From Nitrospirota bacterium (GTDB lineage Bacteria; Nitrospirota; Thermodesulfovibrionia; Thermodesulfovibrionales; JdFR-85), in contig WGEZ01000084.1 of assembly GCA_015492515.1 (NCBI GenBank), positions 1 to 33,930 on the forward strand: a stretch of DNA of 33,930 bases, read 5' to 3'. The position numbers were made by a program, and so were the translations under genes. Below are positions 8,276-20,523 of this stretch, piece after piece; the stretch's first letter is position 1, and every line of letters starts with the position of its first letter. The notes under the pieces were generated by a model. The model searched no databases, was not told the DNA's origin, and saw nothing but the letters and a program-made list of their open reading frames with translations.

Positions 8276-8440
8276 ATGCCTGTTGAAGGACTGAAGAGGG
8301 TCTACGAGACACCGGTGACCAGGGAACGGCAGGAGGTCGAGAGGGACAAGAGCGGCAGGAGGCAGAAGAGGGGTGTAAAGAGGCAGAAGGAGATGCGGCG
8401 GAAGGATGAAACCCGGGGACGTATCGATATAAGGGCCTGA
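8276..8440 (+). CDS. Small very basic protein (54 aa), motility-locus associated
   Basis: Too short for the ORF track. ATG at 8276 begins one base after the HDOD stop and runs 54 codons to TGA at 8438-8440: MPVEGLKRVYETPVTRERQEVERDKS..., ending RGRIDIRA. The sequence is dominated by Arg, Lys, Glu and Gln, has no membrane segment, and uses AGG/CAG/GAG codons like its neighbours. Its stop overlaps a GGGCCT-GAAG-AGGCCC hairpin (8433-8448), after which comes the next gene's GGAGGTCGAG site. The tight fit between two genes on the same strand supports a real gene. Function unknown. Confidence 0.6.
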   Translation: MPVEGLKRVYETPVTRERQEVERDKSGRRQKRGVKRQKEMRRKDETRGRIDIRA

Positions 8441-8461
8441 AGAGGCCCGGAGGAGGTCGAG

Positions 8462-8833
8462 ATGTTGAAGGGTCTGAGGAAAGAGAAGAGGAGGAGCAAA
8501 AAGGTGGACAGGGCCAGCGGGCTGCTCAATGTCGAGCTCTCCGAGATAGAGGAGCTCTCATCGCTCATGATGAGCAGGATAGATGCGAGGTTGAGGACCC
8601 TGAGGGAGACGGAGGAGAGGCTCGAGGGGAAGATGGAGGCCCTGGAGAGGTTGCTTCTGAGGGCGGAGAAGGTGACCCAGGAGCCGGACGGCCTGTTAGA
8701 TTACCGTTACAGGGAGGTGCTGGTGCTCGCCAGCAAGGGGCTGAAGACCGAGGAGATCGCTGGCATCCTCGATATATCAAGGGGTGAGGTGGAGTTCATC
8801 ATCACCATGAATATGCACAGCGAGCGGATGTAG
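8462..8833 (+). CDS. Coiled-coil protein with C-terminal HTH-like motif (DUF2802/DUF6115-like)
   Basis: 123 residues with GGAGGTCGAG before the ATG. The N-terminus is basic (KGLRKEKRRSKK). A coiled coil spans about residues 28-78 (LSEIEELSSLMMSRIDARLRTLRETEERLEGKMEALERLLLRAE). The C-terminus has a helix-turn-helix-like pattern, YREVLVLASKGLKTEEIAGILDISRGEVEFII, as found in DUF2802/DUF6115 proteins that sit in flagellar loci. The role of that family is not established; a DNA-binding or assembly role is only inference. Last gene before the flgF promoter; a hairpin terminator follows 24 bases later. Confidence 0.7.
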   Translation: MLKGLRKEKRRSKKVDRASGLLNVELSEIEELSSLMMSRIDARLRTLRETEERLEGKMEALERLLLRAEKVTQEPDGLLDYRYREVLVLASKGLKTEEIAGILDISRGEVEFIITMNMHSERM

Positions 8834-8856
8834 TTGACCTTCCCGGCCTTGCATCT

Positions 8857-8878
8857 GGAAGGCCCGAAGGGGCCTTCC
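8857..8878 (+). terminator. Terminator-like hairpin after the HDOD operon
   Basis: GGAAGGCCC-GAAG-GGGCCTTCC, a perfect 9-bp stem with a 4-nt loop, followed by TCTC rather than a long T run. It lies 24 bases after the stop of the coiled-coil gene and before the sigma-54 promoter of flgF. Confidence 0.6.
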
Positions 8879-8961
8879 TCTCACCGAACCAAACGGAGAC
8901 CGTATCTGCGTGCCGCCTTTCAGCCCCCTCCCGCCACCAACCAGACGAAACAGACCAGAAA

Positions 8962-8992
8962 GCCGGGGAAGGAAATTTTTTCCTTTCCCGGC
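8962..8992. terminator. Second strong hairpin before flgF
   Basis: GCCGGGGAAGGAAA pairs with TTTCCTTTCCCGGC (one G-U) around a 3-nt TTT loop, a 14-bp stem. Six consecutive Ts cover the loop and the start of the 3' arm; no T run follows the stem. It may terminate leftover upstream transcription, or be an upstream element of the flgF promoter region. Confidence 0.5.
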
Positions 8993-9069
8993 AAGAAACT
9001 CCCATCCCCTCAACCGGAGGGACGCCCGCCGTTGCCCCTTTCCCCGGCGCCGCCGGGACAGCGGTTTGC

Positions 9070-9084
9070 TGGCACACCTCTTGC
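9070..9084 (+). promoter_or_regulatory. Sigma-54 (-24/-12) promoter for the flgF operon
   Basis: TGGCAC-ACCTC-TTGC matches the RpoN consensus TGGCAC-N5-TTGC exactly. The GC of the -12 element is at 9083-9084, so transcription should begin near 9095-9097, practically on the flgF ATG at 9098. An enhancer-binding protein (FlrC/FlgR type) would be required; none is encoded in the window. Confidence 0.85.
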
Positions 9085-9097
9085 TTGATCATTCGGC

Positions 9098-9811
9098 ATG
9101 TACAAGGGTATCTACATAGCCGCCTCGGCAGCCGCGGTGAAGGATGCGGAGGTCTCGGTGATTACGAGGAACCTTGCAAACGCCTCCACGGCGGGTTATA
9201 AAAGTGAGGGCGTAGCCTTCAGTGCCTACATCCTTCCACTGGTCCGGGAGGTCGGTTATCAGGACAGGGTGATGGTGGAGAAGGGGAGGGTGGTCACCGA
9301 TTTCTCGCCCGGCTCCTTCATCCACACCGGCAACCCCCTCCACGTCGCGATCAGGGGGGACGGGTTCTTCACCCTCGAGGGCGGACTGTACACCAGGCGC
9401 GGGGACTTCAGGATCGATGCAGAGGGATATCTTGTGAATGTAGAGGGGAGGAAGGTCCTCGGCGGGGACGGAGAGCCGATCCGCATCCCCCAGGGCGGCC
9501 TCACGATCGGCGCAGACGGCGAGGTGACCGTGGACGGTGCGGCCGTCGGGAGGCTGAAGGTGGTCGACTTTCCAAGGCCCTACAACCTCACGAAGGTGGG
9601 TGACTCCACGTTCATCCCCTCCGGAGCTCAGAGGCCCCGTGAGGTCTCAAGCGGGATCGTCCAGGGAGAGCTGGAGGCCTCCAACGTGAACGTCTTCAGG
9701 GAGATGACGAGGCTGATCAGGACGGTCAGGGAGTTCGAGGCCTACCAGAGGATGATCAGGGCCTTCGACAACGCCGCAGCAAAGGCATTAAACGAGATAG
9801 GGAGGATATAG
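9098..9811 (+). CDS. flgF: Flagellar basal-body rod protein FlgF
   Basis: 237 residues. The N-terminus [38 protein letters not shown] is the conserved flg_bb_rod helix with the [11 protein letters not shown] motif, the centre carries [27 protein letters not shown], and the C-terminus [41 protein letters not shown] is the matching coiled-coil helix. FlgF forms the proximal rod next to FlgG and is exported by the flagellar type III system without a cleaved signal. The start is fixed by the conserved N-terminus and no Shine-Dalgarno precedes it, which fits a near-leaderless message from the sigma-54 promoter. First gene of the rod/ring operon; flgG begins 4 bases later. Confidence 0.93.
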
Positions 9812-9815
9812 AGAG

Positions 9816-10604
9816 ATGATACGTTCGCTCTTCATTGCAGCAACGGGTATGGAGGCACAGAAGCTGAACATCGACATCATCGCCAACAACCTCGCCAACG
9901 CCAACACGCCGGGATACAAGCGGAGCAGGGCCGACTTCCAGGAGCTGATGTACCAGGAGATCAAGAGCCCCGGTGCGACGTCGGCCGGAGGCTCTCAACT
10001 GCCCTCGGGCATTCAGGTGGGCCTCGGTGTTCAGACCGCGGCGGTGCAGAAGATATTCGAGCAGGGAGACTACGTCAACACCGCCAATCCGCTGGATATG
10101 GCGATCGAGGGTGAGGGCTTCTTCCAGATCGTCAAGCCCGACGGTGAGATCGCCTACACAAGGGCGGGGACGTTCAAGCTGGACAGCGAGGGCAGGATCG
10201 TCACCTCCGAGGGCTATCCCCTGGAGCCGGAGATAACCGTCCCGGCCGACACGACCCAGATAACCATCAGCTCCGACGGCCGGGTGAACGTGTTACAGCC
10301 GGGCAGCAACGAACCCACGGAGGTCGGGCAGATCGAGCTCGCAAAGCTGCCCAACCCGGGAGGGCTGAAGTCCATAGGCAAGAACCTCTTCGTCGAGACC
10401 GCCTCCTCGGGTGCGCCCATAACCGGCGCACCCGGCACGGAGGGGATGGGGACGATACAGCAGGGGTTCATCGAGCTCAGCAACGTCGACATAGTTAAGG
10501 AGATGGTTCAGATGATCGCCAGCCAGAGGGCCTATGAGCTGAACTCCAAGGCCGTGCAGGCCGTGGACGACATGCTCCAGATGACGAACAACCTGAGGAG
10601 GTAG
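9816..10604 (+). CDS. flgG: Flagellar distal rod protein FlgG
   Basis: 262 residues, the usual FlgG length. [47 protein letters not shown] is the canonical N-terminal rod motif and the distal-rod region; [48 protein letters not shown] is the central core; [42 protein letters not shown] is the C-terminal helix. FlgG polymerises into the distal rod that crosses the peptidoglycan and outer membrane and is surrounded by the P and L rings. It lies 4 bases after flgF, with GAGAG as a weak ribosome site, and its terminal codons contain the GAGGAGGT site for flgA. Confidence 0.96.
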
Positions 10605-10607
10605 GTG

Positions 10608-11237
10608 ATGCTCACTCTGCTGCTGGTGTTGAGCCTGGCGGCGGGCTGGACGCCTGCCGACGCGATCAGGGAGTACCTGTTGAAGAGCTACCCCTGGCCG
10701 GAGGTCGAGGTGAGCGAGGTCACGGTGGAGGGTTCCGTGCCGGCCGGGGTGCCGGCGGAGATAACGACCGAGAGGGGGCCTCTCGGGAGGGCCTCGTTCA
10801 TGGTGCGGTTCATCAGCGGCGAAAGGGCCCGCGTGAGGGCCAGGGTCGTGGCGCGGGACGCCACGGTCAGGAGCGTGCGGTCACTGGCCAAGGGAGCCCT
10901 CCTGACGGAGGACGAGGTCTACACGGCGATGATGGATGTACGGAGGATACCGAGGGGGGCCGTCCGGAGCCTGGAGGGGGTTCTGGGGAAGCGGCTGAAG
11001 AGGTCGTTGCCGGCGGATACGGTGATCACCGAATCGATGCTCGAGGAGCCCCCCCTCGTCAGGAAGGGAGAGAAGGTGATCATCCTGTACAGGGGTCCCT
11101 ATCTGAAGGTCACCACCACGGGCATCGCACGGGAGGACGGCAGCAGGGGTGAGGTGATAGTGGTCCTGAACGCAGGCTCCAGGAAGAGGCTCTCGGGCCT
11201 CGTCGTCGGAAAGGGGGTCGTGGATGTCAGCCCTTAG
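10608..11237 (+). CDS. flgA: P-ring assembly chaperone FlgA
   Basis: The ATG at 10608 is preferred over the GTG at 10605 because of spacing from GAGGAGGT in the end of flgG. 209 residues with a Sec signal peptide (MLTLLLVLSLAAGWTPADA), a variable N-terminal domain, and a C-terminal SAF/ChapFlgA domain: SLAKGALLTEDEVYTAMMDVRRIPRGAV, GVLGKRLKRSLPADTVITESMLEEPPLVRKGEKVII, VTTTGIAREDGSRGEVIVVLN. FlgA acts in the periplasm to help FlgI assemble into the P ring. It lies between flgG and flgH in a compact operon and overlaps flgH by 14 bases. Confidence 0.9.
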   Translation: MLTLLLVLSLAAGWTPADAIREYLLKSYPWPEVEVSEVTVEGSVPAGVPAEITTERGPLGRASFMVRFISGERARVRARVVARDATVRSVRSLAKGALLTEDEVYTAMMDVRRIPRGAVRSLEGVLGKRLKRSLPADTVITESMLEEPPLVRKGEKVIILYRGPYLKVTTTGIAREDGSRGEVIVVLNAGSRKRLSGLVVGKGVVDVSP

Positions 11238-11955
11238 GGGAGGGGCCTCAGGGGTGAGGGGCCTTGCAGCCCTTCTGGCATTGACTGCGCTGCCCGGTCT
11301 GTTCTCGGCGGGCTGTTCCTCCACCGCGAGTCTTCCGCCTCCTCCGCCTGCCTACGTCCTGAAGCCCACGGATGAGGCCGCCGGGACCCGGTCGCCGGGC
11401 TCCATATACAGAGAGAGGGCGAGCCTCTTCGAGGACAGGAGGGCCAGGAGGTTGAACGACCTCGTGACGGTCCTGATCGTGGAGAACGTCTCCGGGGCCA
11501 AGAAGGCGGAGACGAAGGCCGGGAGGGACTCCTCCATCGATGCCTCGATCAGCAAGCTCTTCGGCATCCCCCTCGACTTCAACCTCAAGAACCTGTACGG
11601 AAAGGGGAACACCTTCGACCCCTCCCTGGGCAGCTCCATAGAGTATGATTTCCAGGGCTCCGGGGAGACGAGCAGGGAGGGGACCCTCAAGGGCACCATC
11701 ACGGCGAGGGTGGTGGACGTCCTCCCGAACGGAAACCTGATGATAGAGTCGAGGAAGGAGATCACCCTCAACTTCGAGAAGCAGGTCCTCGTGCTGAGGG
11801 GCACGATAAGGCCCGACGACATATCCACGGAGAACACGATAGAGAGTACGAGGATCGCCGACGCCCAGATATTCCTCGTCGGCGAGGGGATCATCGATAA
11901 CAAGCAGTCCCCGGGCTGGCTGGGGAGGCTGGTCGACAGGGTATGGCCCTTCTGA
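11224..11955 (+). CDS. flgH: Flagellar L-ring lipoprotein FlgH
   Basis: 243 residues starting inside the end of flgA. Lipoprotein signal peptide with lipobox LFSAGC (Cys30), so the mature protein is anchored in the outer membrane. The FlgH core is clear: SIYRERASLFEDRRARRLNDLVTVLIVENVSGAKKAETKAGRDSS, GSGETSREGTLKGTITARVVDVLPNGNLMIESRKEITLN and GTIRPDDISTENTIESTRIADAQIFLVGEGIIDNKQSPGWLGRL. It forms the L ring around the distal rod. Its presence is direct evidence that this organism has a conventional outer membrane. Confidence 0.94.
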   Translation: MSALRGGASGVRGLAALLALTALPGLFSAGCSSTASLPPPPPAYVLKPTDEAAGTRSPGSIYRERASLFEDRRARRLNDLVTVLIVENVSGAKKAETKAGRDSSIDASISKLFGIPLDFNLKNLYGKGNTFDPSLGSSIEYDFQGSGETSREGTLKGTITARVVDVLPNGNLMIESRKEITLNFEKQVLVLRGTIRPDDISTENTIESTRIADAQIFLVGEGIIDNKQSPGWLGRLVDRVWPF

Positions 11956-11998
11956 TGGAGGCTGTTCAGGTGTCCCATACCTGGAGAGGTGGCGGCGG

Positions 11999-13090
11999 AT
12001 GATAAGGGGTGCGACCGTACTGGCCCTCACCCTCGTGCTGGTCCTGCCCGGCCGCACCGTCGAGGCGGAGAGGCTGAAGGACATAGCCTTCGTCGAGGGC
12101 GTGAGGGAGAACCAGCTCGTCGGCTTCGGCCTCGTCGTGGGCCTGAAGGGGACGGGTGACAAGGGCAACGCCACGATGCAGGGCATAGCGAACATGCTCT
12201 CCAGGATGGGGCTGAAGGTGAAGGCGAAGGACCTGAAGGCGAAGAACGCCGCTGCGGTCATGGTTACGGCCACGCTGCCGGCCTTCCCGAGGGCGGGCAA
12301 CAGGATCGACGCCGTCGTCTCCTCCGTGGGCGACGCCAAGGACCTCCAGGGCGGGACCCTCCTGATGACACCCCTGAAGGGGCCGGACGGAGTGGTGTAC
12401 GGCCTCGCCCAGGGGCCTGTCTCGATAGGCGGCTTCTCGGCTGGCGGCGGTGGAGGGGCGGTGCAGAAGAACCACCCCACGGTGGGCAGGGTGCCCAACG
12501 GCGTGATCATAGAGAGGGAGGTCCCTCTCTCGCTGAGGGGGCTGAGGGAGGTGAAGATAATACTCCGCAGCCCGGACTTCACGGTGGCCTCGAACGTCGC
12601 AAAGGGGATAAACAGGTTGCTGAAGAGCGAATACGCCGAGGCCGTCGACCCCTCTACGGTGATACTCGGGGTGCCCGAGGAGTACCGGGGCAGGGTCGTG
12701 GAGCTGATGAGGCTCGTGGAACACGTCGATGTCGGCGTGGATGCACCGGCCAGGGTGGTCATCAACGAGCGGACGGGCACGGTGGTGATCGGCGACGACG
12801 TGAGGATCTCTCCCGTTGCCATAGCGCACGGAGGCCTGACCATCGAGATAACCACCGAGTTCAGGGTCTCACAGCCGCCCCCCCTCTCTCCTGGTGAGAC
12901 CGTGGTGGTCCCGCAGACCGATATCACGGCGGAGGAGAAGAAGGCCCACCTCATGGAGGTCTCGGGCACGACCCTCGGCGAGGTCGTGAGGGCGCTGAAC
13001 AGGATGGGGGTTACGCCAAGGGACCTGATCGCCATCCTCCAGGCCCTGAAGGCCGCGGGTGCACTCAAGGCGGAGCTGGAGATAATCTGA
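11999..13090 (+). CDS. flgI: Flagellar P-ring protein FlgI
   Basis: 363 residues, typical length. Sec signal peptide (MIRGATVLALTLVLVLPGRTVEA) followed by the FlgI core RLKDIAFVEGVRENQLVGFGLVVGLKGTGDK, NAAAVMVTATLPAFPRAGNRIDAVVSSVGDAKDLQGGTLLMTPLKG, ARVVINERTGTVVIGDDVRISPVAIAHGGLTI, and the C-terminal GTTLGEVVRALNRMGVTPRDLIAILQALKAAGALKAELEII. The P ring sits at the peptidoglycan layer. A 43-base gap separates it from flgH; the stop overlaps the flgJ start by one base (TGATG). Confidence 0.96.
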   Translation: MIRGATVLALTLVLVLPGRTVEAERLKDIAFVEGVRENQLVGFGLVVGLKGTGDKGNATMQGIANMLSRMGLKVKAKDLKAKNAAAVMVTATLPAFPRAGNRIDAVVSSVGDAKDLQGGTLLMTPLKGPDGVVYGLAQGPVSIGGFSAGGGGGAVQKNHPTVGRVPNGVIIEREVPLSLRGLREVKIILRSPDFTVASNVAKGINRLLKSEYAEAVDPSTVILGVPEEYRGRVVELMRLVEHVDVGVDAPARVVINERTGTVVIGDDVRISPVAIAHGGLTIEITTEFRVSQPPPLSPGETVVVPQTDITAEEKKAHLMEVSGTTLGEVVRALNRMGVTPRDLIAILQALKAAGALKAELEII

Positions 13091-13899
13091 TGATCTACCC
13101 CGATCCGATATCCCTCTACGGCATGACCTCTCCCGGGGAGGGGGTGAGGAAGGTCTCCAGGGAGTTCGAGGCCCTCTTCATCTACGAGCTCCTGAAGGGT
13201 ATGAGGGGCATGGCCGGGAAGGGGCTCTTCGGCGAGGGGCTCTCAGGGGATGTCTTCCAGACCCTCTTCGAGATGGAGCTGGCGAGGGTGCTCGCAGAGC
13301 GGGGGACCGGGCTGTCGGAGGTCCTGGTCAGGACCCTCGAGGGAAGGGGCCGTGAGGTGGACGGAGTCTCAGGTGAGGCTCTGCACCCCGGGCCGGAGAC
13401 CGGGACTGCAGTGGATGCCGCCGCCGTTTCAGAGGAGGTGACGGGGGGCAGAACCCCGGCGGTATCGATCGAGCCCCCGAGGGGTTCGAATGCGGTCCCC
13501 GGGGTTGAGGCGGGGGACCGCAGGGGAAGGCTCCCGGTCGAGGGGAGGATTACATCCGGCTTCGGAAGGAGGATCGATCCCATAACGGGTGAGACGAGGG
13601 TCCACAGGGGTGTGGATATCGCCGCAGCCCCCGGGACCGAGGTCTATCCCTTGAGGGCCGGGAAGGTGATCTTCAGCGGGGCCCTGAAGGGGTTCGGCAA
13701 CATCGTCGTCATTGAGCACGACGACGGCATGGTGACGAGGTATGCCCATAACCAGAGGAACCTCGTCAAGGCGGGGGACCGCGTCGCCGGAGACACCCCC
13801 ATAGCCCTGGTGGGGAGCACGGGGAGGTCCACCGGACCGCACCTGCACTTCGAGGTCCTGGAGGGCGGCAGACATGTGGACCCCTTGGAAGTCGTGTAG
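13090..13899 (+). CDS. flgJ: FlgJ-type rod-cap protein fused to an M23 (LytM) peptidase
   Basis: 269 residues. The N-terminal ~85 residues are the FlgJ rod-binding domain (KVSREFEALFIYELLKGMRGMAGKGLFGEGLSGDVFQTLFEMELARVLAERG). A variable Pro/Gly/Glu-rich linker (~85-150) leads to an M23 zinc endopeptidase domain: ITSGFGRRIDPITGETRVHRGVDIAA (HxxxD), GNIVVIEHDDGMVTRYAHN, and TGPHLHFEV (HxH). All zinc and catalytic residues of the lysostaphin-type fold are present, so it should be active. Proteobacterial FlgJ usually carries a GH73 glucosaminidase instead; here a peptide cross-link hydrolase would open peptidoglycan for the rod. It is translationally coupled to flgI; the product lacks a signal peptide and should leave through the flagellar exporter. 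Confidence 0.9.
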   Translation: MIYPDPISLYGMTSPGEGVRKVSREFEALFIYELLKGMRGMAGKGLFGEGLSGDVFQTLFEMELARVLAERGTGLSEVLVRTLEGRGREVDGVSGEALHPGPETGTAVDAAAVSEEVTGGRTPAVSIEPPRGSNAVPGVEAGDRRGRLPVEGRITSGFGRRIDPITGETRVHRGVDIAAAPGTEVYPLRAGKVIFSGALKGFGNIVVIEHDDGMVTRYAHNQRNLVKAGDRVAGDTPIALVGSTGRSTGPHLHFEVLEGGRHVDPLEVV

Positions 13900-13912
13900 G
13901 GCGCCGGCGTAT

Positions 13913-13939
13913 TAAAGTTTTTCGCCTGCCGGCCGATAG
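13913..13939 (+). promoter_or_regulatory. Sigma-28 promoter upstream of flgM
   Basis: TAAAGTTT-N11-GCCGATAG, 15 of 16 consensus matches with the canonical 11-base spacer. It starts 14 bases after the flgJ stop and lies ~31 bases before the flgM start, so flgM-flgN-flgK-flgL can be transcribed as a late class independently of the sigma-54 promoter at flgF. Confidence 0.92.
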
Positions 13940-13970
13940 TATAAGTGAAATCCATCACTGGAGGTTCAGC

Positions 13971-14258
13971 ATGAAGATTCACGGTGGAAGGCCTCCCGAG
14001 AGCCAGGATGCCTATCTCAGGGCGCAGAAGACGACGGGCAAGGAGGCGGTCGAGGGCAAGGGGGCCGTAGAGAAGAGGAAGGTCGGTGACAGGGTGGACC
14101 TCACAGGGGCCGGCAGGGTCGAGGAGCTGAAGGCCGAGATCCAGAGGCTGCCGGAGGTGAGGACCGACAGGATCGAGGCCGTGAAGAAGGCCATAGAGGC
14201 CGGCACATACCGGATTGACGCCGAGAAGATACTCTCCAGGATGATCGACGAGCTATGA
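13971..14258 (+). CDS. flgM: Anti-sigma-28 factor FlgM
   Basis: 95 residues, usual length, with GGAGG nine bases before the ATG. The N-terminal half is low-complexity and charged, as expected for the disordered exported part; the C-terminal half has the sigma-28-binding helices RVEELKAEIQRLPEVRTDRIEAVKKAIEAGTYRIDAEKILSRMIDEL. FlgM holds FliA inactive until the hook is finished and is then exported. Its own sigma-28 promoter gives negative feedback. The stop overlaps the flgN start (ATGA). Confidence 0.93.
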   Translation: MKIHGGRPPESQDAYLRAQKTTGKEAVEGKGAVEKRKVGDRVDLTGAGRVEELKAEIQRLPEVRTDRIEAVKKAIEAGTYRIDAEKILSRMIDEL

Positions 14259-14695
14259 AGGATTCGACACCGATATTGAACATCCTTGAAGAGCAGGTGA
14301 GGTGCTACGGCAGCCTCTACGGGCTGTTGAAGAGCGAGAAGGAGGCCATAGTCTCCTTCGACCCCGCGGTGTTCGAAGAACTCGCCAAGCAGAAGGACAA
14401 CCTCGTCCTGCAGCTCAGACTGCTGGAGGACGAGAGGAAGAGGCTCACCGACGAGTTCTTCTCCGAGGAGGACACGGGCAGGAGCATCTCGGACCTCTAT
14501 GCCGTCACCGGGGACGAGAGGTTCGTCAGGATACGCTCCCGGTTGATGAGTCTGTTGCAGGGCATAGAAGAGCTGAACGAGATAAACAGGCTCCTCATCG
14601 AGAGGGCCTCGCTGCACCTCAGTGCATCAGCAAACTTCTTCCAGACCTTTAACATGGATGCATCGAGGAAGGTCACCGTCTCCAGAGAGGCGTAG
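14255..14695 (+). CDS. flgN: FlgN-type export chaperone for hook-associated proteins
   Basis: 146 residues, almost entirely helical: LNILEEQVRCYGSLYGLLKSEKEAIVSFDPAVFEELAKQKDNLVLQLRLLEDERKRL and RIRSRLMSLLQGIEELNEINRLLIERASLHLSASANFFQTF. This is the FlgN pattern (E...Y..L..L..KE...I...D...L.....K). FlgN binds FlgK and FlgL and delivers them to the export gate in the cytoplasm, which agrees with flgK and flgL following directly. It overlaps flgM by 4 bases. FlgN sequences diverge strongly, so the call leans partly on position. Confidence 0.88.
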   Translation: MKDSTPILNILEEQVRCYGSLYGLLKSEKEAIVSFDPAVFEELAKQKDNLVLQLRLLEDERKRLTDEFFSEEDTGRSISDLYAVTGDERFVRIRSRLMSLLQGIEELNEINRLLIERASLHLSASANFFQTFNMDASRKVTVSREA

Positions 14696-14721
14696 CGCCT
14701 TCCCGGTTTCAGAGGTTTGAG

Positions 14722-16344
14722 ATGGCCATCTTGGGGTTGTTCGATATAGGCAGGTCAGCCATATTTGCGAGCCAGACCGCTCTGGACGTCACGGCGAACA
14801 ACATCGCGAACATCAACACCCCTGGTTACTCACGGAAGGAGGCGATCCTCGAGATATCGGACCCTGTCCGGACGGGTGCCGGGTTCGTGGGAAGGGGGGT
14901 CACCGTGGGAGGGATAAAGCGCTACTACGACCGCTTCCTCCAGGCGCAGATCTCCCTCCAGTACCAGAGGACGGGCAGGGCGAACATACTGGGTGAGCTC
15001 TACAGGGCTGTGGAAGGGGCCTTCAACGAGCAGCAGCCCGGCTTCTCCGAGGCCTTCAGTGAGTACAGGAAGGCCTGGCAGGAGGTTTCGGACAATCCCG
15101 AGGCCCTTCCCCAGCGCTCGGTCCTCCTCCAGAGCGCCCTCAGGCTGGCAGGCCTTGCAAAGGGCGTCGAACGCACACTCACGGACCTCCTCGAGGACGG
15201 TACGGAGAAGATAATCGATGCCGTGGAGAGGATAAACACGACAGCCGCTGAGATCTCCTCGCTGAACGAGATGATAGCCAAGGTGGAGGCCGGCAGCTCC
15301 ACCCAGGCCAATGACCTGAGGGACAGGAGGGACCGGTTGATGAACCAGCTCAGCGAGCTCGTCGACTACTCATACTTTGAGGACGACCGGGGAAGGGTGA
15401 CGGTGATCGTGGGGGGCAGAAACCTGGTATCAGAGACGGGGTACTCCGAGCTCACCGCGGTGGAGAACAGCGACGGTACGGTGGATATCTTCGGAGGCAG
15501 GGTGAGGATGAACGACTACATCTCGGGAGGCCGGCTCTCGGGGCTTCTGGCTGCATCGGAGGAGATAAAGGGCGGTCCCCTCAAGGACTTCCGGAGGCTC
15601 ATCGCCTCCATCGTGAAGGAGACGAACCTGCAGCACAGGGAGGGCTACGGGCTCGACGGCTCAACGGATAAGGACTTCTTCAGCCCCCTCCGGCTCTTCA
15701 CCAAGGACTACTCCGACGGCGCCTCCATTACCGCGGCGGCGATCACAGACTACTCCTCGTTGAATCTCCACGAGTACGAGATCAGGTTCACCGACCCCGG
15801 CACCTACGAGGTCTATGATATCGACGAGGAGAGGCTTGTGACGTCGGGTTCCTACACCTCTCCCCAGACGATCTCCTTCGAGGGGATCGAGGTGGAGATA
15901 ACCGATGACGCCGGCGGCCCCCTCAGGGGCGACAGGTTCTTCATAAGCCCCCTTGAGATGGCGGTCACCGGCCTCTCGCTCAACGTCACAGAGCCCGAGG
16001 AGGTGGCGGCGGCCTCTGCTCCCGACACCCTGCCGTCGGACAACAGGAACGCCCTCTCGATGGCCGAGCTCCTGCAGGGGAGCGTCCCGGACCTCGGCGG
16101 CAGCTTCGATGATCACTACAGGGGTATTGTGGGTGTGACGGGTTACATGAGCAGGGCGGCCCAGGACAGCAGCGACTTCGAAGAGAGCCTCCTGGAGGAG
16201 CTGAGGCTGAGGAGGGAGTCCGTCTCCGGGGTGAACCTCGACGAGGAGGCGGCCAACCTCATAAGGTTCCAGAAGGCCTTCGAGGCCGGCGCAAGGCTCA
16301 TCAGGATGACCGATGAGCTGCTGGAGGAGATACTGAGGCTATGA
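14722..16344 (+). CDS. flgK: Hook-associated protein 1 FlgK
   Basis: 540 residues. The N-terminus MAILGLFDIGRSAIFASQTALDVTANNIANINTPGYSRKEAILEI is the rod/hook/HAP motif, followed by FVGRGVTVGGIKRYYDRFLQAQIS and the FlgK-specific SEAFSEYRKAWQEVSDNPEALPQRSVLLQSALRLA. DLRDRRDRLMNQLSELVDYS and GGRLSGLLAASEEI are further family motifs, and the C-terminus SGVNLDEEAANLIRFQKAFEAGARLIRMTDELLEEILRL closes the coiled coil. It forms the first hook-filament junction ring. The central domain (~310-440) is variable. Stop and flgL start overlap by 4 bases. Confidence 0.95.
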   Translation: MAILGLFDIGRSAIFASQTALDVTANNIANINTPGYSRKEAILEISDPVRTGAGFVGRGVTVGGIKRYYDRFLQAQISLQYQRTGRANILGELYRAVEGAFNEQQPGFSEAFSEYRKAWQEVSDNPEALPQRSVLLQSALRLAGLAKGVERTLTDLLEDGTEKIIDAVERINTTAAEISSLNEMIAKVEAGSSTQANDLRDRRDRLMNQLSELVDYSYFEDDRGRVTVIVGGRNLVSETGYSELTAVENSDGTVDIFGGRVRMNDYISGGRLSGLLAASEEIKGGPLKDFRRLIASIVKETNLQHREGYGLDGSTDKDFFSPLRLFTKDYSDGASITAAAITDYSSLNLHEYEIRFTDPGTYEVYDIDEERLVTSGSYTSPQTISFEGIEVEITDDAGGPLRGDRFFISPLEMAVTGLSLNVTEPEEVAAASAPDTLPSDNRNALSMAELLQGSVPDLGGSFDDHYRGIVGVTGYMSRAAQDSSDFEESLLEELRLRRESVSGVNLDEEAANLIRFQKAFEAGARLIRMTDELLEEILRL

Positions 16345-17345
16345 GGCTCTCGAGCTTCATCATATACGACAGGGTCGTAAGGTCGATGCAGGAGAACCTG
16401 ACAAGGCTCGGTGAGAGCCACCTCTCGATCGCCACGGGCAAGAGGATAAACAGGCCGTCACAGGACGTCACGGGAGCCGTGAAGGCCCTCGACTACAGGG
16501 TGAGAATCGACGAGTCGGAGCAGTACATCAGGAACATCGACGATGCCAGGGCGTACCTGGAGCTGACGGAGACGGTCCTTGCAGGCGTCGGTGACGCCCT
16601 CACGAGGGCGAAGGAGCTCTCACTGGCGGCCCTGAACGGTGACGAGAGCGCCGAGACGAGGGCGATCATGGCGAAGGAGGTGGATGGGCTGAGGGAGCAC
16701 CTCCTCGGCAGGGGCAACACGAGGTTCCGCGGCAGGTACATCTTCAGCGGCTTCCTCACCGACACACCCGCATTCGACGGAGGCGGGCTCTACCAGGGTG
16801 ACGGCAACTACATCGAGATAATGACCGGACCGGACCTGAAGGTGAAGGAGAACATAACGGGCGAAGAGGCCTTCGCCTATACACAGGAGGCGGAAGAGAC
16901 GGTCGAGACCGGGGGCGGCGGGTTCATCCACTACATACCCGGCGGAGGGACGACGGTCACTGTGGAGATACGGGCCAGCGACGACACCACGGTGCTGGAC
17001 ACCTTCAGCTTCAGCTCCTTCATCGAGCTGCTCGACATACTGGCCCGTGCACTCGAGGCGGATGACACCGGGAGGGTGAACGCGATCCTGAAGCCCCTGG
17101 ACGACTCCCTCCAGCAGACCCTTGACGTGAGGGCCGAGGTCGGTGCCCGGCTCGACCTGCTTGAGGCCGAGAAGAGGAGGCTGGCCGACGGTGTCTTCAA
17201 CCTCAAGACCGTCCTCTCCGAGACGGAGGATGCAGACATCACGGAGGTGATAGCCGAGATGTCCAGGACAGAGGTGGCCCTCCAGGCCCTCAGGGAGACG
17301 GGCGCAAGGATCCTGAGCCAGTCCCTCATGGACTTCCTCAGGTGA
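16341..17345 (+). CDS. flgL: Hook-associated protein 3 FlgL
   Basis: 334 residues with flagellin-like ends. The N-terminus IIYDRVVRSMQENLTRLGESHLSIATGKRINRPSQDVTGAVKALDYRVRI is the flagellin/FlgL D0-D1 pattern, then YLELTETVLAGVGDALTRAKELSLAALNGDES and FRGRYIFSGFLTDTPAF. The C-terminus QTLDVRAEVGARLDLLEAEKRRLADGVFNLKTVLSETEDADITEVIAEMSRTEVALQALRETGARILSQSLMDFL supplies the returning helices. It is the second junction protein, exported through the flagellar channel with FlgN. It overlaps flgK and lies 32 bases before csrA. Confidence 0.94.
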   Translation: MRLSSFIIYDRVVRSMQENLTRLGESHLSIATGKRINRPSQDVTGAVKALDYRVRIDESEQYIRNIDDARAYLELTETVLAGVGDALTRAKELSLAALNGDESAETRAIMAKEVDGLREHLLGRGNTRFRGRYIFSGFLTDTPAFDGGGLYQGDGNYIEIMTGPDLKVKENITGEEAFAYTQEAEETVETGGGGFIHYIPGGGTTVTVEIRASDDTTVLDTFSFSSFIELLDILARALEADDTGRVNAILKPLDDSLQQTLDVRAEVGARLDLLEAEKRRLADGVFNLKTVLSETEDADITEVIAEMSRTEVALQALRETGARILSQSLMDFLR

Positions 17346-19837: not shown

Positions 19838-19914
19838 GGATGGTCCGTCTGCAACACGTCAGGGACCTCGCCTCTGGAAGCGAGGCTATCTCACCTCGAA
19901 AGGGAGGGCTCGAT

Positions 19915-20523
19915 ATGTCAAGGGTAAGAAGGGCCATAGTCAGCGTCTCAGACAAGACAGCCATCGAGGGCTTCGTGAGGGCGCTTCACGATCTCGGCGT
20001 CGAGGTCCTGTCCACCGGTGGAACCGCGGCCAGGCTGAGGGAGGCGGGCGTGCCCGTCATCGAGGTCTCTGCTTATACCGGGTTTCCCGAGATGCTGGAC
20101 GGCCGGGTCAAAACGCTCCATCCGAAGATACACGCCGGGCTGCTGGCCAGGAGGGACGACGAGAGGCATATGGAAGAGTTGAGGGCCAACGGCATAGAGC
20201 CCATAGATATGGTGGTGGTGAACCTCTACCCCTTCGAGAAGGTCGTCGCCAGCCCTGAGACCAGGTTCCATGAGGCGATGGAGAATATAGACATCGGAGG
20301 GCCGACACTGATCAGGGCCGCTGCCAAGAACTTCGAATACGTCGCCGTGGTGGTCGATCCCTCTGATTACGACTCCGTGAGGGACGAGCTGATAAGGCTC
20401 GGCGGAGAGTTGAGCTACAGGACGCGGGTCAGGCTGGCCTGGAAGGTCTTCAACCATACCTTCCACTACGACAGGGCCATCGCCGAGTACCTGTCGAAGA
20501 CCCTGGAGGCCGCTGCGGAATGA
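19915..20523 (+). CDS. purH: Stand-alone IMP cyclohydrolase (PurH N-terminal domain only)
   Basis: The start at 19915 has AGGGAGG 7 bases upstream; the ORF-track start at 19840 is rejected. 202 residues that match only the MGS-like IMP cyclohydrolase half of bifunctional PurH: AIVSVSDKTAIEGF, VLSTGGTAARL, TGFPEMLDGRVKTLHPKIHAGLLARRD, IDMVVVNLYPFEK, ENIDIGGPTLIRAAAKNFE. The residues implicated in ring closure (Lys in RVKTLHP, Tyr in NLYPF, Asp in NIDIGG, Lys in AAAKN) are all present. The AICAR transformylase half (~300 residues) is missing: the gene ends cleanly and purD begins 115 bases later. The formyltransferase must come from another locus (split PurH or PurP). Catalyses the last step to IMP. 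Confidence 0.88.
   Translation: MSRVRRAIVSVSDKTAIEGFVRALHDLGVEVLSTGGTAARLREAGVPVIEVSAYTGFPEMLDGRVKTLHPKIHAGLLARRDDERHMEELRANGIEPIDMVVVNLYPFEKVVASPETRFHEAMENIDIGGPTLIRAAAKNFEYVAVVVDPSDYDSVRDELIRLGGELSYRTRVRLAWKVFNHTFHYDRAIAEYLSKTLEAAAE

Follow-up and report, generated by a model that had tools for sequence, protein, structure and literature searches.

Leaderless mRNAs originating from sigma-70-type promoters are described for Campylobacter jejuni and Helicobacter (PMC3847290) as well as for Sinorhizobium meliloti (PMC3616915). According to the former report, the identity of the leaderless genes is poorly conserved among Epsilonproteobacteria (PMC3847290). For sigma-54 promoters, the study on the Geobacter RpoN regulon marks a ribosome binding site ahead of the start codon and downstream of the mapped 5' end (PMC2725144). 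Here we describe a sigma-54 promoter in front of the flagellar rod gene flgF that is located so close to the ATG that the message would begin within a few bases of it.

The window, i.e. the complete stretch of 33,930 nucleotides that was analyzed (contig WGEZ01000084.1 of a Nitrospirota bacterium of the class Thermodesulfovibrionia), contains the following features at the flgF start:

9070 to 9075, plus strand: -24 element TGGCAC, identified from the sequence, its genome-wide excess over a control and its retention at flgF loci
9081 to 9085, plus strand: -12 element TTGCT, identified from the sequence and its retention at flgF loci
9086 to 9088, plus strand: in-frame TGA closing the flgF frame 5' of the ATG, read from the sequence (open frame of only 240 codons versus a match of 237 aa)
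9095 to 9098, plus strand: predicted transcription start (nominal +1 at 9096), placed by the usual spacing from -12 to +1
9098 to 9811, plus strand: flgF, ATG start, 237 aa, assigned by Pfam Flg_bb_rod, FlgE/F/G D1 and Flg_bbr_C and by the family alignment
9816 to 17345, plus strand: remaining genes of the apparent operon (flgG, flgA, flgH, flgI, a flgJ-like M23 protein gene, flgM, flgN, flgK and flgL), co-transcription being suggested by close spacing

A sequence-only reading of this DNA had placed a perfect -24/-12 element 13 bases before the flgF ATG (counted from TTGC to 9098-9100), and the element was found exactly there. Positions 9070-9085 read TGGCAC-N5-TTGCT, a perfect match to the core of the sigma-54 consensus including the GG and GC dinucleotides and the exact spacing; directly after TGGCAC there is an A where the longer consensus has a G. 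The genome (assembly of 2.19 Mb in 148 contigs) encodes sigma-54 itself (rpoN; Sigma54_DBD, E 2.4e-63). TGGCAC-N5-TTGCW occurred six times in the 2.19 Mb and never in the reversed control, and TGGCAY-N5-TTGCW 13 times versus zero for the reversed pattern, with an excess in 17/17 genomes of the family. Thus, the full core is far above chance. Counting from the -12 C at 9084, the predicted +1 falls at about 9096, two bases 5' of the flgF ATG.

The N-terminus of FlgF, which the same reading took to be fixed, is indeed so: the alignment of the family shows no variation at M1, and the TGA at 9086-9088 blocks any earlier start. None of the three codons between this TGA and the ATG is a start codon, so that an upstream flgF start is excluded. 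The absence of a Shine-Dalgarno (SD) sequence also held, the anti-SD duplex energy being -0.7 kcal/mol, and the 16S tail of this genome is normal with the anti-SD present (GGATCACCTCCTT). In 297 kb of the genome with simple ORF calls, 65% of starts had an SD at dG <= -6 versus 39% in the control; this modest excess may be explained by crude start choice.

The distance between promoter and ATG was compared in related genomes, with the gap taken as the bases that separate TTGCW from ATG and the predicted leader as gap minus 10. In the host's family, all 16 flgF loci (8 genera) carried the sigma-54 element with a gap of 12-15; DNA upstream was otherwise very different between genera, whereas the distance from promoter to ATG was kept. 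Across the phylum the gap was bimodal: among 108 loci, 58 had a gap of 11-16, none of 17-21 and 40 of at least 22, and 10 had no clear site. The short distance was thus seen in 16/16 loci of the family and in 58/108 of the phylum. When promoter, short gap and a flgF-like start were searched together, 46 of 396 Nitrospirota genomes matched (29 genera, all within the class; reversed control 0), which is an undercount because the flgF start pattern is narrow; the pattern had no match in the sampled phylum genomes outside class Thermodesulfovibrionia. In the Nitrospiraceae of the sister class, 13 of 13 tested flgF genes had a sigma-54 promoter, with a gap of 28-58 and mostly an SD-like sequence. 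In f6, f3, f7 and f15, four further lineages of Thermodesulfovibrionia, a long gap and an SD were present at most of the loci read, and one f6 genome had a gap of 15 and no SD.

Gap length and SD went together. With an anti-SD duplex energy of -6 or better as cut-off, an SD was scored at 7% of short-gap loci, 62% of long-gap loci and 80% of loci with no clear site (local backgrounds 11%, 11% and 20%, respectively); the difference gave a Mann-Whitney p of 5e-12 uncorrected for relatedness, which overstates the independent evidence since the loci are related. The SD-like sequences near the ATG in 4/58 short-gap loci were mostly upstream of the predicted +1. In the family, a few loci (L046 and L048) have SD-like bases near the ATG, again mostly upstream of the predicted +1. 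On a tree of 86 FlgF proteins, built without the added f6, f3, f7 and f15 lineages, the gap state required 9 changes versus a mean of 25.5 after shuffling and hence was clustered. As promoters farther back mostly come with an SD and close ones without, the close spacing looks functional rather than accidental.

Among short-gap loci the predicted leader was 1-6 nt and not zero, and extra 5' bases can weaken leaderless translation; this speaks against the leaderless reading, as do the 4/58 loci with SD-like sequence and the many lineages of the class that have long leaders with an SD. The start codon was ATG in 54 of the 55 short-gap loci read and TTG in one (L226), and the ATG was preceded by G at position -3 in 35/55 and by C at position -1 in 33/55; these preferences would fit transcription beginning at a G shortly 5' of the ATG or at the A of the ATG itself. 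As a separate observation, the first flgF codons (9098-9130, loci of the class) showed a strong synonymous bias: Ile7 was encoded by ATA in 65/70 cases versus 36/66 at another conserved Ile, and wobble A was also preferred at K3 and G4, which may be ordinary codon bias of start regions.

Altogether, near-leaderless initiation of flgF is very probably real and conserved, as judged from the comparison of sequences; distance and absence of SD strongly back the earlier reading, with the 5' end as a prediction. We hold it to be highly probable that flgF heads a sigma-54 operon whose message begins a few bases from the AUG, with a predicted leader of about 2 nt, that translation of this message is of the leaderless type, and that this arrangement is inherited and selected in part of Thermodesulfovibrionia. 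An activator of the NtrC family, probably bound at the upstream palindrome described below, would open the sigma-54 holoenzyme at 9070-9085, transcription would then start at about 9096, and the ribosome would recognize the 5'-terminal AUG of the flgF message and not an SD. In Thermodesulfovibrionia, flgF would accordingly occur in two main states, with a short leader lacking an SD or with a longer leader that usually has one. The suggestion that such initiation could set the timing of rod subunits was not supported: the apparent operon runs from flgF through flgL, and its anatomy does not suggest an effect confined to the rod. Further along from flgL the window encodes fliW, motA and motB. 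A 227 aa purH-like gene at 19840-20523, ahead of purD, combines an MGS domain with no more than the first 60 of the 311 positions of AICARFT and may be truncated or frameshifted. No Rfam element was found in the window.

An alternative origin of the flgF message would be a sigma-70 promoter further upstream or read-through from the preceding gene, giving a long leader with SD-independent, S1-type translation and leaving the sigma-54 site a secondary role. The region concerned holds:

8462 to 8833: gene of 123 aa upstream of flgF
8856 to 8879, no strand assigned: stem-loop with 10-base arms and a GAAG loop, an inverted repeat 3' of the gene ending at 8833, with no U-tract

We regard this origin as unlikely. 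No sigma-70-like promoter was found in 8400-9200, and the stem-loop that follows the upstream gene is possibly a transcription end parting it from flgF. Moreover, the leader would be GC-rich here and would have no SD, and the distance from promoter to ATG is conserved although the surrounding DNA is not. In favor of such messages elsewhere, three relatives (L181, L186 and L197) had long-gap flgF leaders of about 44-63 nt with AT-rich repeats (AAATTTTAAATTTT) and no SD, so that leadered flgF messages lacking an SD probably exist in the class. The AT-rich, SD-less leader predicted there is a third type beside the leaderless and the SD type.

The close spacing could also be a neutral by-product of promoter drift, with flgF translated weakly or by coupling or internal signals and without any leaderless mechanism. 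The gap does vary, from 11 to 16, and several lineages have long leaders. The complete absence of loci at gap 17-21, together with the SD at most long-gap loci, is however what is expected if the short leader and the SD are alternative working states. The short gap was retained across about 29 genera, and a flagellum cannot be built without the rod protein; we regard neutral drift as very unlikely. Finally, flgF might not depend on sigma-54 at all, its -24/-12 match having arisen by chance. This has next to no probability, given the full-core count, the presence of rpoN and the retention of the site in front of flgF orthologs from two classes, although weaker TGGC-N7-TTGC strings were near control frequency (59 versus 43 in the control).

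The DNA in front of the flgF promoter contains a candidate activator site:

8962 to 8992, no strand assigned: near-perfect palindrome with the core AGGAAATTTTTTCCT (8970-8984), a candidate site for an NtrC-type activator, noted for its recurrence at flgF

The core corresponds to AGGAA-N5-TTCCT and lies about 100 bases upstream of the flgF promoter. Of 86 flgF sigma-54 sites in the phylum, 46 had it within 300 bases upstream with at most one mismatch; most copies lay between -70 and -270, and some sites had two of them about 20 bases apart. Under the same conditions it was found at 0/42 true non-flgF sigma-54 sites; the single match among the 43 sites labeled 'other' was L246, itself a flgF locus missed by its label. 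For background, one exact match was counted over 263 kb of the host genome. A search at limited distances near any sigma-54 site in 17 genomes had returned only the flgF of the window and one other place; it was sparse because the distance varies, and an open search to 400 bases revealed the pattern. NtrC-type regulators are encoded in the genome. The recurrence of the palindrome fits a flgF-specific enhancer and makes it the likely candidate site of an NtrC-type activator.

Short gaps were not confined to flgF. Over 107 sigma-54 sites in genomes of the family, ATG starts of ORFs peaked at gap 11-15 with 16 flgF sites and 14 others from six gene families, whereas five-base bins further downstream held about 4 each. 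Among them was fliK, for which five genomes of a single genus have a gap of 13-15, besides one response-regulator-like, one thioredoxin-like and one CBS/cNMP gene. In the window's own genome, a TPR gene with a short-gap sigma-54 promoter precedes genes for a histidine kinase and for an NtrC-type regulator (L283, G000:C134:5000-12000); this is likely a flagellar control cluster. Another NtrC-type regulator is encoded upstream of the TPR gene. Many of the remaining sigma-54 sites of the family have longer leaders with an SD of the AGGAGG type. The gene lpxC, weighed as a possible further short-leader gene, had a gap of 18-22, and one relative has a TATAAT box close to the lpxC ATG. Boxes similar to TATAAT and placed 5-7 bases in front of an ATG numbered 13 versus about 4-5 expected in the parts of the window's genome searched for them (L295-L314, 60% GC), which weakly suggests that sigma-70 leaderless genes exist there as well.

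As a tentative and rather doubtful extension, the flgF operon, fliK, the TPR-kinase-NtrC operon and the small response-regulator-like and thioredoxin-like genes might form a conserved sigma-54 'leaderless regulon' in Thermodesulfovibrionia, which would couple activator-dependent transcription with a separate way of initiating translation. If so, only messages started by sigma-54 would be well translated, and the set would be tunable by the state of the ribosome. Leaderless translation at the head of such an operon had been called unusual in the sequence-only reading. This stands insofar as no earlier description was found: the accessible parts of the literature retrieved on sigma-54 flagellar genes and regulons by a partial, term-based search, which is no proof of novelty, contained neither a leaderless flgF nor a leaderless sigma-54 class. 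It does not apply within the lineage, in which the arrangement is common and other sigma-54 genes are alike.

Compared with the described systems, flgF resembles the sigma-70 leaderless mRNAs of PMC3847290 and PMC3616915 in the missing SD and the ATG start, and would also do so in its 5' end, which is predicted to lie on or close to the AUG. It differs from them in its activator-dependent sigma-54 promoter, and in that the same gene is concerned across many genera, in contrast to the poor conservation reported for Epsilonproteobacteria. In turn, TGGCAC-N5-TTGCT is shared with the RpoN flagellar operons covered by a review (PMC3930126) and with the Geobacter RpoN regulon (PMC2725144), and so, probably, is an NtrC-type activator; unlike at the ordinary-leader sigma-54 flagellar promoters in these sources, the flgF leader is predicted at about 2 nt and has no SD. 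In the Nitrospiraceae, the orthologous flgF has a near-perfect sigma-54 site upstream, but with a predicted leader of about 18-48 nt. The flgF case would thus combine sigma-54 promoters with leaderless messages, both of them known kinds, as a conserved feature of a lineage, and would tie an activator-dependent promoter to the translation mode of a major flagellar operon. A sigma-54 case that extends over about 29 genera in two sharp states, with the sister class in the other state, provides a natural series for studying why genes enter or leave leaderless initiation.
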